The notes under the pieces are model-generated. The model saw nothing but the letters and a program-made list of their open reading frames with translations. It had not been told where the DNA came from and searched no databases. A DNA stretch of 64,000 nucleotides, from the NCBI GenBank assembly GCA_002720865.1, contig PBIO01000014.1, positions 248,001 to 312,000 of the forward strand. The letters run 5' to 3'. This document shows, in pieces, positions 24,891-56,835 of the stretch; the first letter of the stretch is position 1, and each line of letters begins with the position of its first letter. This DNA is from Halobacteriovorax sp. (GTDB taxonomy: Bacteria > Bdellovibrionota > Bacteriovoracia > Bacteriovoracales > Bacteriovoracaceae). The position numbers and the translations under genes are program-made.

Positions 24891-24965
24891 TGGGGTGTCG
24901 ACAAGTGGTAAGTCAACAGATTTTGATTCTGTCATGCATAGGTTCGAGTCCTATCACCCCAACCA
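24891..24965 (+). tRNA. tRNA-Gln (anticodon TTG), CCA encoded
   Basis: A complete 75-base cloverleaf. The acceptor stem TGGGGTG/CACCCCA lies at 24891-24897 and 24955-24961. The D stem is GAC/GTC. The anticodon stem ACAGA/TCTGT has loop TTTTGAT with anticodon TTG at 24923-24925, reading the Gln codon CAA. The T arm is ATAGG-TTCGAGT-CCTAT, followed by discriminator A and an encoded CCA. The first pair is U1-A72, as in other bacterial tRNA-Gln. prs starts 28 bases after the CCA, so the tRNA and prs probably share a primary transcript. Confidence 0.96.
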
Positions 24966-53325: not shown

Positions 53326-54822
53326 ATGGATTCAAATAAATATTTTAACTTAAGCTCATGGGCCTCATTCGATATTAACGGTGAAGACTCGAAGCGCTTT
53401 TTAAGCGGGCAGCTAACAAGTGATCTAAATAAACTTTTTCCCAAGTCTTCTCAATTGACCGCGAGAGTTTCAAGAACTGGCAATTTATTATTTTATGGTT
53501 ATTTGATTTATATCAATGAAAATTATTATAAAATTATAACTCCCCAAGTGTTTGTTGATGATTTCATCGAGGATCTAAAAAAATTTGCCATAATGGACGA
53601 GGTTGAATTTTCAAAAGAAAATGAAACATTGATCGTGGGTAATGAAGATAACCAACTTTTAGAAGCAGACTATATTATAAACTTTTTAGGAAAACCGACC
53701 TCCTTTAAATTTTCAAAAGATCATTTGTCTTTTGAGGAATACGAAATTACTCGATTAGAGTTTATGTATGGAATTCCAAGCATTCCTCGAATTCAAGAAG
53801 AAGGTATTTTAGTTAACCAAACGGTCTTTGTGGACGAAGCAGTCTCCAATGAAAAAGGTTGTTATGTAGGTCAGGAAACAGTCAAGAAAATTGAAGCAAA
53901 TCGTGGAGCTGGTAAAAAATCAGTCGCACTTATTTTAAAAAATAAAGCTAATAAAGTCGGCGAATTTATCAAGGTGAATGAAGAGGAATATAAAATACTT
54001 GGTTTTAGCACAGAAGGAGATACTCAGTTAGTATCAGTTGAAGCTAAAAGAAGCATTAGGGTTCAAGACAAGCAAGTTACAATTGAGATAGAAGGTAATG
54101 TTGATACAGCAAAAGTAAGATTATTTCCTATCTTAAATAAGTCAATTGAATCTATTTCGACTGGCTATTATGAAAAGGCAGTATCTTTTTTTACAAGTGG
54201 AAATAATGAAGAAGCTATAAAGTGGATGGAGCTGGCCTTTAGGATTAACCCTAATGATAAAGAAATAGCGGAGTCTTTTGGGGCACTAGTAGGTAGGCTT
54301 GGGGACTTAAAGAAAGCGATTGAGATTATGGATCATCTTGAGTTAATAGATCCCGACTCAATTATGGCTCACACTAATAAATCTCTTTTTTATATGAAGC
54401 TAGGAGAAATTGAAAAAGCTGAGGATGAAAAGTCCAAGGCTACAGTAAAAGGTTTTAAAAATACGGCGAAGCAAAACTCTGATAAGAAAGAGGAACTAAA
54501 TAAGCGTCTTGGTATGTTTAAACAGGTCCTGGAGATTGATGAAGAAGATGAATTGGCTAACCAGGGGGCGGCAGAAATATATTTTGAGTTTGGTGAGATT
54601 GAAAAAAGTAAATTGCACTTAGAGAAATTAATTTCAATAAATAATAAAAACTTTAAGGCAATGGCCCTAATGGCAAAAATATTAATCAAAGAAAGTCGTA
54701 ATGATGAAGCATTAGAGCTACTTAAAAAGGTATCCTTGATTTCTGGAGAGAAGGGAGATTTTGTTCTAGCAAATGAAACACAATCACTTATAAATTCTTT
54801 AGAGATTCCCTCATCTTCGTGA
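53326..54822 (+). CDS. YgfZ-like folate-binding protein fused to TPR domain
   Basis: A 498-residue fusion. The first half is a GcvT-like fold with the YgfZ signature KGCYVGQETVKKIEA near residue 185 (conserved Cys) and RLEFMYGIPSIP earlier. YgfZ uses folate to help repair or maintain Fe-S enzymes. From about residue 285 to the end there are repeated TPR helices (YYEKAVSFFTSGNNEEAIKW, AIEIMDHLELIDPDS). A TPR tail is not part of the usual YgfZ of about 330 residues. It directly follows the A-type carrier gene and overlaps the convergent HExxH gene by 35 bases. Confidence 0.85.
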   Translation: MDSNKYFNLSSWASFDINGEDSKRFLSGQLTSDLNKLFPKSSQLTARVSRTGNLLFYGYLIYINENYYKIITPQVFVDDFIEDLKKFAIMDEVEFSKENETLIVGNEDNQLLEADYIINFLGKPTSFKFSKDHLSFEEYEITRLEFMYGIPSIPRIQEEGILVNQTVFVDEAVSNEKGCYVGQETVKKIEANRGAGKKSVALILKNKANKVGEFIKVNEEEYKILGFSTEGDTQLVSVEAKRSIRVQDKQVTIEIEGNVDTAKVRLFPILNKSIESISTGYYEKAVSFFTSGNNEEAIKWMELAFRINPNDKEIAESFGALVGRLGDLKKAIEIMDHLELIDPDSIMAHTNKSLFYMKLGEIEKAEDEKSKATVKGFKNTAKQNSDKKEELNKRLGMFKQVLEIDEEDELANQGAAEIYFEFGEIEKSKLHLEKLISINNKNFKAMALMAKILIKESRNDEALELLKKVSLISGEKGDFVLANETQSLINSLEIPSSS

Positions 54823-56083
54823 TTTCATCTCTTTGAGCTTTTTCCAATTGAGATTCAACCCTTGTAACATCTTTTTTAAAAACTCTAACTTCATCCATTA
54901 CGTTTTGAATTAAGGTCCAGCCAAAGTCTGTGATGAGCTCATTTTTACGGGCCAGCTCTAATGAACCTTGGCAAAAACTTAACATGTAGAATTCTTCAAT
55001 AAAGCGAAATTTTATTTTTTTAACTTCATTATCATCATAAAATTCATTAATTTTGTCGTTTAGGCAAAGAGATCCAAAAAGCTTGAGGGCCCAGTAAAAG
55101 GTGAATACCCCGTGATAAATACCTCTTAGAGGTCGAGGTGATTTTCGCCATGGGGAGTAATAAGCTTTTTCAGAGTCTTCAACTATTAGTTCATTAGAAT
55201 TAAGTATGTAGTTTAAATAATGATGACCGTTTTCATGTATGAGGTCATCAATACAATCGACTCTGTCTCGACTAAAGAGGTTGATCGAAGAATACCCAGG
55301 AAGGTTCTGCAAAGAATAGCTGACCATGCTCGGTTCATCGAGAGCAATAATTGTATGAGTAAATTTTTCTAAAAGAGAATAGAGTTCTGGGGCTAAGGAA
55401 TCTAACACTGAAAGCGAGTGTTCTATTTTGCTTTTGAACTCAAGCTTTTTCTCTTCCCCTTTTTTAGACCCGGGCCTTAGAAATAAAGTACTCTTTTTAA
55501 GAGGTATAGGCACTTGAACTATATCGTGTGTACGATTTAATTTTTTGATATTTACGAACTCATTATCAAGACTTTCTGAATTCTCGTCATCAAGCTCCAG
55601 TCCTTGATTAAAATCCAAATATAAAAACGTTTTAAAATCACCAATTTCAGGCATTCTCTTGATTGTAGAGTGGAGACTGAAATCGTTGGTATAGTTTAAA
55701 AGCAAATAATTTATAAAATGATCTTCAAGCTTTTCTAAAACTTTTCTAGAAGACTCAAGGATATTGTCTTCGTACACTGAGAAAAAAATTGAAGCGAAGT
55801 CAGAGGTCTCCCAGTAATCAAAAATCTCATCTTCAACTTCTTCAAAAATCAGCTCATTTATGTAAATTATATCTATTAGTAGTTGGGTAAAATATACTTT
55901 TAGAGAAGAGAAGGGCCCATGGATAAATATATCTCCAAGCTTATCTGGGAATAAATTTTTTTCTTCAAATTTTCCTAAAAGAGTTTCTGGAATTTCCAGG
56001 TCTAACCAATAGGAGTTTAATTGAGCTTTAGTGTTCTCAATTGAGATATCTTGAAAGTCGATAGAGAGAATATTTACTGACAT
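54788..56083 (-). CDS. HExxH-motif protein (aKG-HExxH-like family)
   Basis: A 431-residue protein with no signal peptide. Near residue 283 is LIHENGHHYLNYIL, an HExxH motif. About 35 residues later comes YYSPWRKSPRPLRGIYHGVF. The combination of HExxH with Pro-Trp-Arg-x-x-Pro-Arg-Pro-Leu-x-Gly resembles the family described as HEXXH-motif or alpha-ketoglutarate HExxH-type peptide beta-hydroxylases, linked in some genomes to ribosomal peptides; that link is not evident here, as no precursor peptide gene was seen. The ATG lies only seven bases after the encoded CCA of tRNA-Asn, with no Shine-Dalgarno sequence. It converges with the YgfZ-TPR gene. Confidence 0.7.
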   Translation of the reverse strand: MSVNILSIDFQDISIENTKAQLNSYWLDLEIPETLLGKFEEKNLFPDKLGDIFIHGPFSSLKVYFTQLLIDIIYINELIFEEVEDEIFDYWETSDFASIFFSVYEDNILESSRKVLEKLEDHFINYLLLNYTNDFSLHSTIKRMPEIGDFKTFLYLDFNQGLELDDENSESLDNEFVNIKKLNRTHDIVQVPIPLKKSTLFLRPGSKKGEEKKLEFKSKIEHSLSVLDSLAPELYSLLEKFTHTIIALDEPSMVSYSLQNLPGYSSINLFSRDRVDCIDDLIHENGHHYLNYILNSNELIVEDSEKAYYSPWRKSPRPLRGIYHGVFTFYWALKLFGSLCLNDKINEFYDDNEVKKIKFRFIEEFYMLSFCQGSLELARKNELITDFGWTLIQNVMDEVRVFKKDVTRVESQLEKAQRDEITKMRESLKNL

Positions 56084-56090
56084 GTAAAAG

Positions 56091-56165
56091 TGGCTGGGGT
56101 GGAGGGACTCGAACCCACGACCAAAAGATTAACAGTCTTCTGCGCTACCACTGCGCCACACCCCA
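56091..56165 (-). tRNA. tRNA-Asn (anticodon GTT), CCA encoded
   Basis: A complete 75-base cloverleaf on the minus strand. The acceptor stem is TGGGGTG/CACCCCA. The D arm is GCGC/GCGC. The anticodon stem GAAGA/TCTTT has loop CTGTTAA with anticodon GTT. The T arm is GTGGG-TTCGAGT-CCCTC with one T-T mismatch, and discriminator G and an encoded CCA follow. The first pair is U1-A72, as in the tRNA-Gln of this window. The HExxH gene starts seven bases after the CCA. Confidence 0.95.
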
Positions 56166-56168
56166 ACA

Positions 56169-56200
56169 GATTGAAATTAGATAATGTTATAATTTCAATC
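56169..56200. repeat. 11-base perfect inverted repeat upstream of tRNA-Asn
   Basis: GATTGAAATTA, a ten-base loop, TAATTTCAATC: a perfect 11-pair dyad. It covers the -10 element of the tRNA-Asn promoter. On the plus strand it is followed after four bases by TTTTT, but no plus-strand gene lies close upstream. It may be an operator or a hairpin in the 5' end of the tRNA precursor. Confidence 0.6.
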
Positions 56201-56214
56201 GACCTTTTTGTCCA
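56186..56214 (-). promoter_or_regulatory. sigma-70 promoter for tRNA-Asn
   Basis: On the minus strand TGGACA (56209-56214), 17 bases, TATAAC (56186-56191): one mismatch each to TTGACA and TATAAT. It lies 20 bases before the tRNA 5' end. It is probably also the promoter of the HExxH gene. Confidence 0.55.
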
Positions 56215-56303: not shown

Positions 56304-56319
56304 GTCATTGAGGTATCAA

Positions 56320-56835
56320 ATGGTTGGAAAGAACCTACTTTTAGGTCAATTGCTCAGAATATTAACTCCAGATGAGTTGAATGAGCTTACGACGACTTCC
56401 AAAGGGAGAAACTTAGTATCTTTAACTAAGATGCTTTCAAGTGATCTTGACGAAGAAACTGGTGGCGCAAAAATACTTCCTTTTAAAAAGAAAGAAGTTG
56501 AGGAGGATGGGTCCAAAGAAGAGGAAAGAGAATCCTTGGCCATTGATATAGAGTGTGGGCCAAATTGTAAATCTATCTTAGATGACCACGTAAAAAGAAT
56601 TACTGTATTAAATAGAGACTATTCTAAAAACTGTCCAGTTAGCCAGGAAACTTCAAGTTTTATAATTAGCGAAAAATCAAGATTCAAAGAAAATTACAAT
56701 AAAATCAAATCTAAAGAAGTATTATCTCTGTATGAAAAAAATGCATCTATAGATATTCAACGAGAGAAGAATCAAAAAGAAGACTTATCTAATTCTTCAA
56801 ATATTGGAATTCTCGTAAATAAGAAACAAGCCTAG
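56320..56835 (+). CDS. small hydrophilic protein of unknown function
   Basis: A 171-residue protein from the ATG at 56320, which has GAGG six bases upstream; the TTG at 56308 overlaps that site and is rejected. It is very rich in Lys, Glu and Ser and has no signal or membrane segment. The start (NLLLGQLLRILTPDELNELT) is helical and hydrophobic. A few Cys residues occur near the middle (DIECGPNCKSI). I recognise no family. The 3' end overlaps the convergent aldehyde dehydrogenase gene by four bases. Confidence 0.65.
   Translation: MVGKNLLLGQLLRILTPDELNELTTTSKGRNLVSLTKMLSSDLDEETGGAKILPFKKKEVEEDGSKEEERESLAIDIECGPNCKSILDDHVKRITVLNRDYSKNCPVSQETSSFIISEKSRFKENYNKIKSKEVLSLYEKNASIDIQREKNQKEDLSNSSNIGILVNKKQA

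Follow-up and report, generated by a model that had tools for sequence, protein, structure and literature searches.

A predicted alpha-ketoglutarate-dependent HExxH peptide hydroxylase encoded directly behind tRNA-Asn in Bacteriovoracaceae

The tRNA-Asn/HX locus

The window, a 64,000-nucleotide stretch of a Halobacteriovorax sp. contig, carries on its reverse strand a tRNA-Asn gene followed by a gene for a protein of the alpha-ketoglutarate (aKG) HExxH type, hereafter HX (Table 1). According to the open reading frames of the window, HX starts with an ATG codon 7 nt past the CCA end of tRNA-Asn; the first-pass annotation of this DNA had put the gene seven bases behind the tRNA, and the spacing proved exact (tRNA at 56165..56091 by ARAGORN, HX ATG at 56083). 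Upstream of the tRNA, at a distance of 20 nt, there is a predicted promoter, TGGACA-17-TATAAC; neither the tRNA body nor the 7-nt spacer before HX showed a promoter-like site in the window. At its 3' end, HX overlaps the convergent YgfZ/GcvT-like-TPR gene by 35 nt.

Table 1 Features of the tRNA-Asn/HX locus (positions in the window)
Feature	Position	Strand	Basis
HX, aKG-HExxH-type protein, 431 aa	54788..56083	-	TIGR04267 and AlphaFold2 model
tRNA-Asn (GUU), 3' CCA encoded	56091..56165	-	ARAGORN
T-rich spacer CTTTTAC, 7 nt, from tRNA CCA to HX start codon	56084..56090	-	sequence
Predicted tRNA promoter	56186..56214	-	-35 TGGACA 56214..56209, 17-nt spacer, -10 TATAAC 56191..56186; consensus match only
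HENGH, HExxH metal site (residues 283-287)	55223..55237	-	invariant in 44 diverse homologues
SPWRKSPRPLRGIYH, Arg/His motif (residues 310-324), shared with ChlB	55112..55156	-	conservation in 44 homologues
YgfZ/GcvT-like + TPR gene, convergent to HX, block neighbour outside the unit	53326..54822	+	Pfam; conserved neighbour, 65 loci
Gene c2, divergent, upstream of tRNA-Asn, block neighbour with or without HX	56308..56835	+	locus comparison

The short spacing is above chance, since tRNA-Asn/HX is the only case among the 33 tRNAs checked in the genome in which an ORF of 100 aa or more starts on the same strand within 20 nt of a tRNA, and since the gap is equally short (20 nt or less) in 29 of 63 orthologous loci. 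Two other features of HX were weighed and set aside. The first-pass annotation had stressed that the gene has no ribosome binding site; indeed, no Shine-Dalgarno-like motif was found at the HX start in the window, but this is not unusual, as 32 of the 53 ORFs of the window share the absence with the start set at the first ATG. Nor does an asparagine-rich product account for a link to tRNA-Asn: the Asn content of HX is 6.0% vs 5.0% in the other proteins of the window, which is nothing striking. Elsewhere in the window, a GTG-started ORF of 314 aa preceded by GGAGGG lies 28 nt downstream of a tRNA-Gln (24891-24965), a possible second tRNA-mRNA pair, in this case with a putative ribosome-binding site.

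Enzyme family, predicted fold and a degenerate lineage

HX matches the NCBIfam profile TIGR04267 (aKG-HExxH peptide beta-hydroxylase; IPR026337) with 62.7 bits against a cut-off of 40, and the homologues at two other loci, L087 and L132, score 50.0 and 59.2 bits; a Pfam profile search gave no match for HX. None of the PADLOC models matches HX either (0 families), and the idea of an anti-phage defence protein was rejected on this ground. The sequence string on which the family had originally been proposed, HExxH followed by Pro-Trp-Arg-x-x-Pro-Arg-Pro-Leu-x-Gly, is present exactly as described: HENGH occupies residues 283-287 and SPWRKSPRPLRG residues 310-321. Among 44 diverse homologues, H283, E284, H287, S310, P311, W312, R313, R317, R320, G321, H324 and R360 are invariant, among others. 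In a profile alignment, the Arg/His motif of HX, SPWRKSPRPLRGIYH, aligns with SPWREDLRPPSGLLH of ChlB, and a search of the PDB with the 44-homologue profile returned the HExxH domain of ChlB (8s5f) with E=1e-12 and SjiH with 1e-3.

The AlphaFold2 model of HX (pLDDT 92, pTM 0.91) agrees with this assignment. In a Foldseek search of the PDB, only SjiH (22ob) and ChlB (8s5f), the two members of the family with solved structures, reached E<=1e-3, and a second aligner gave Z 23.9 for ChlB (286 residues, 3.1 A) and Z 22.3 for SjiH (343 residues, 4.6 A), with all other structures below Z 9. As the structural alignments begin at the first residues and end at about 403-426, almost all of HX is predicted to be the aKG-HExxH fold. 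That HX is instead an ordinary zincin-type zinc metallopeptidase is very unlikely: the HExxH motif is common to zincins, and M1 peptidases and LTA4H do appear at Z of about 7.5, but this is 15 Z units under the aKG-HExxH structures, and the SPWR..RP..G..H signature is a feature of the family, found in ChlB too. Both the profile search and the model thus bear out the earlier family claim, the model in particular having the hydroxylase fold and not that of an ordinary zinc peptidase. From sequence and model together, HX can be placed in the Fe(II)/alpha-ketoglutarate-dependent HExxH peptide-hydroxylase family as a stand-alone protein with predicted activity. By analogy with its relatives, the histidine pair of HExxH would bind iron, and R313, R317 and R320 would bind alpha-ketoglutarate. 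Characterised members of the family hydroxylate Asp, His, Gln or Pro in precursors of ribosomally synthesised peptides (RiPPs), and two of them also cleave the peptide backbone (PMC12636437, PMC13060819); proteolysis is also shown by some aKG-HExxH enzymes (PMC12636437).

Selection on HX is given here as pN and pS, with no dN/dS, because synonymous sites are saturated: between the window HX and its orthologue at L086, pN is 0.18 and pS is saturated. A peculiar case is presented by one genus, g23 (genomes G024, G089 and G090), in which an HX homologue of 476-478 aa lies 14-17 nt past the same tRNA-Asn in the same block (L022 1198-2628 and L179 1089-2525 are intact, and L180 is broken by an assembly gap). 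In these proteins SNALHF or SSALHF stands in place of HENGHH and nothing is left of the SPWR..RP..H motif, so that all catalytic residues are lost, and TIGR04267 does not recognise them. The predicted fold is retained, with Z 22.0 against ChlB and 19.9 against SjiH for a model whose alignment took in active relatives. With pN of 0.21-0.30 and pS of about 0.75-0.81, the g23 copies are under strong purifying constraint, and retention of such a dead enzyme implies that the protein is probably useful without its chemistry in at least one genus. It may be asked, then, whether the selected role of HX in general is at least partly non-catalytic, in binding or as a scaffold, with catalysis dispensable. 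The full length, purifying selection and predicted fold of copies that have lost both HExxH and the Arg/His motif speak for this, but the catalytic residues are invariant in the 44 homologues outside g23 and a single genus may have gained a new role; we consider an at least partly non-catalytic role of HX in general improbable.

Distribution and conservation of the arrangement

Our survey covered 129 genomes of the class, which in the collection amounts to the family Bacteriovoracaceae, and found HX orthologues in about 93 of them. The named loci closest to the window HX belong to Halobacteriovorax MAGs, with 71% and 42-43% identity. Four loci (L021, L023, L024 and L158) represent other or unsure subfamilies and were left out of the orthologues, L158 being kept as a distant row of alignment A2. 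The latter encodes a distant HX-like protein (557 aa) and comes from a MAG that bears the label Nitrospira; it lacks both the block and the tRNA, and is either on a misbinned contig or a product of transfer. L024 (1124 onward) and L023 (167 onward) carry TIGR04267 paralogues, and RiPP-precursor-like NLDI..D ORFs follow the end of an apparent substrate-binding-protein gene there. The window genome itself encodes a second TIGR04267-type protein (L085, G000:C17:293608), which scores at the cut-off and lies beside an oligopeptide-binding-protein-like ORF. On an astA tree, 2 to 6 changes of HX presence or absence are required, in keeping with an ancient HX that was lost several times; HX therefore seems to be inherited vertically with the chromosome in Bacteriovoracaceae.

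The tRNA-Asn pattern occurs, nearly always in one copy, in 111 of the 129 family genomes, and has one match in the window genome. A second, different tRNA-Asn of that genome belongs to a tRNA cluster on contig C16, where a dense array of Arg, Asn, Pro and Gly tRNAs (L055, G000:C16, ~47.7-48.8 kb) resembles a mobile or phage element. Wherever HX and tRNA-Asn share a contig (78 of 78 rows), the tRNA precedes HX in the same orientation, and it is present in this position in 63 of 74 loci (73 named loci and the window). The association of gene and tRNA, which the first-pass annotation had singled out, is thus widespread, but not universal: there are islands between the two, clean losses of HX, and one genus in which HX has been relocated away from tRNA-Asn (L109, L116, L123 and L131). 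The gap is 20 nt or less in 29 of the 63 loci, 21-200 nt in 25, and above 200 nt, because of inserts, in 9. Short gaps, of 5-20 nt, are spread over distant clades, and the shortest leave no room for a Shine-Dalgarno sequence; a motif of this kind occurs in 0 of 29 short-gap loci vs 14 of 25 loci with gaps of 21-200 nt. Some of the latter (L091, L098 and L102) contain TATAAT inside the gap, and an HX promoter proper is likely in such loci.

The islands offer a view of the earlier state. At L133, L143, L126, L155 and L146, extra genes separate tRNA-Asn from HX, and HX is preceded by a copy of the 3' end of the tRNA. At L133, L143 and L126 the HX-side junction reads CCAGCCA(C/T)TTTTTATG, i.e. ACCAGCCA(C/T)TTTTTATG, which to judge by its sequence is the ancestral short spacer. 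Retention of this junction on the HX side suggests that the short-gap pair is older than the insertions, which look like integration events at the tRNA-Asn 3' end; tRNA-Asn would accordingly be an integration site in the family.

Adjacency as such has to be viewed against its surroundings. The pair lies in a syntenic block of about 10 genes, comprising arginine-succinyltransferase genes (astC/astA/astD-like), the divergent c2, tRNA-Asn, HX, the convergent ygfZ-TPR, and HesB/ErpA-like, FHA, cobalamin adenosyltransferase-like and mutase genes. Judged by gene order, tRNA-HX adjacency by itself is no better conserved than this block, whose synteny would be able to hold the two together without any functional coupling; adjacency was therefore rejected as sufficient proof of coupling. 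What reaches beyond block synteny is the start of HX no more than 20 nt behind the CCA in many distant clades, its singularity among the 33 tRNAs, the conserved upstream promoter and the terminator difference described below. In HX-negative genomes the block is mostly kept and HX is cleanly missing, being the sole gene that differs consistently between the two versions of the block; a comparison of these versions revealed no short precursor-like ORF, transporter or partner enzyme that varies with HX. Consequently, a RiPP cluster in cis was rejected, the neighbours being much alike with and without HX, and the tie to a ribosomal peptide product that the annotation had suggested found no support at the locus. 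Since nothing specific to HX lies beside it, its substrate would be encoded elsewhere.

A different possibility is that HX matures a RiPP precursor encoded elsewhere in the genome and that the tRNA arrangement is incidental. The characterised members of the family modify RiPP precursors (PMC12636437, PMC13060819), and just upstream of the paralogues in G033 and G027 (L024 and L023) there are short ORFs, led by a Shine-Dalgarno motif, that have NLDI..D in common; however, nothing resembling a RiPP gene set varies with HX at its locus, and HX is passed on vertically and widely kept, in contrast to the usual mobile biosynthetic cluster. We regard RiPP maturation in trans as possible, if rather doubtful.

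Proposed expression of HX and comparison with known systems

A sigma-70-like T(A/G)GACA-17-TATAA(A/C) sequence, identified by consensus match only, precedes tRNA-Asn in nearly all 63 loci. Its mean promoter score is 9.5/12, vs 6.0/12 for the best sites inside short-gap pairs, in which no comparable promoter was found; the earlier view of the tRNA promoter as the only one in sight stands up in the window, and the arrangement is kept across many genera. Intrinsic terminators were scanned for in one 100-nt window behind the tRNA with strict stems, HX-positive loci being those with gaps up to 200 nt. They occur behind tRNA-Asn in 6 of 18 HX-negative loci vs 1 of 54 HX-positive ones (p=7e-4, with kinship ignored and three of the six from one genus). 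The pair has the makings of a tRNA-mRNA dicistron: both genes are on the same strand, with no terminator and no intervening promoter.

It could be argued that HX is transcribed from a promoter of its own that overlaps the body of the tRNA gene, for instance with a -10 element in the anticodon region TGTTAATC, and that adjacency reflects block synteny with no tRNA-mRNA coupling. This is consistent with the synteny around the pair, and with several long-gap relatives whose gaps contain TATAAT-like sites as well as Shine-Dalgarno motifs. Nevertheless, in short-gap loci the best hexamer pair within the tRNA (~6/12) is weaker than the conserved upstream promoter (~10/12), and terminators behind the tRNA are largely limited to HX-negative loci, which makes a separate promoter unlikely.

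Most likely, HX is co-transcribed with tRNA-Asn and its message has almost no leader. RNA polymerase would start at the tRNA promoter and read through the terminator-less tRNA-Asn into HX, the second cistron of the transcript; cleavage by an endonuclease slightly downstream of the CCA, as part of tRNA 3' processing, would free a message with 0-7 nt before the AUG, to be translated leaderless or nearly so. In other bacteria, cleavage at tRNA 3' ends has been mapped a few nucleotides past the CCA (PMC3848588, PMC4681348), and leaderless messages of E. coli prefer AUG (PMC3848588), with which the ATG start of all 29 short-gap HX ORFs is in line. The enzyme would then beta-hydroxylate, or oxidatively cleave, a peptide or protein of the cell itself, the gene for which would lie elsewhere. 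To this reading as a whole, i.e. a stand-alone HX expressed by tRNA-Asn read-through, 3' processing and near-leaderless translation and acting on a substrate in trans, we assign a probability of roughly 0.62.

A bolder version has only an outside chance of being right: that the class ties a protein-hydroxylating enzyme to tRNA-Asn through excision, so that its output follows tRNA-Asn synthesis and processing, that its target is a core cellular, non-antibiotic protein, and that the dead copy in one genus keeps a binding role. If true, HX would be the first aKG-HExxH enzyme with a housekeeping function. In any case, a cluster-free, vertically inherited aKG-HExxH lineage in predatory bacteria points to substrates beyond peptide antibiotics, and the tRNA-HX pair is a natural test of whether a gene can be expressed as a rule through leaderless messages made by tRNA 3' processing. 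The short-gap, long-gap, island-split and gene-loss versions provide ready-made comparisons, and g23, with its homologue at the same spot, lets binding be told from catalysis.

The enzyme class is known, while neither its occurrence outside a peptide-antibiotic cluster nor its predicted tRNA-borne expression seems to have been described; a search of the accessible literature found nothing matching tRNA-borne leaderless messages. The aKG-HExxH enzymes characterised in PMC12636437 and PMC13060819 all act in RiPP clusters: PflC/PosC and PesO, from Pseudomonas and Peribacillus RiPPs, belong to the same enzyme family as HX and, unlike HX, have genes for precursor peptides and further modifying enzymes alongside their own. 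ChlB, an aKG-dependent peptide beta-hydroxylase of a cyanobacterial RiPP, resembles HX in whole-length fold of its HExxH domain (8s5f), in HExxH and in SPWR..RP..G..H, but is fused to a radical SAM domain and lies in a RiPP cluster, whereas HX stands alone, outside any cluster, after tRNA-Asn; the two are ~20% identical, and HX carries a stricter HENGHHxLN. SjiH (PDB 22ob/22nu), the deposit of which names the molecule 'Radical SAM core domain-containing protein', shares the fold, HExxH and PWR..RP..G with HX, and differs in having Gln at the position of His324 and only 12% identity over the aligned structure. As regards expression, the E. coli dicistrons tyrT-tpr and thrU-tyrU-glyT-thrT-tufB likewise have a protein gene downstream of tRNA in one transcript, from which it is freed by tRNA processing. 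The tRNA-Asn/HX pair differs from both in a gap too short for a Shine-Dalgarno leader and in its recurrence over many genera of one class.
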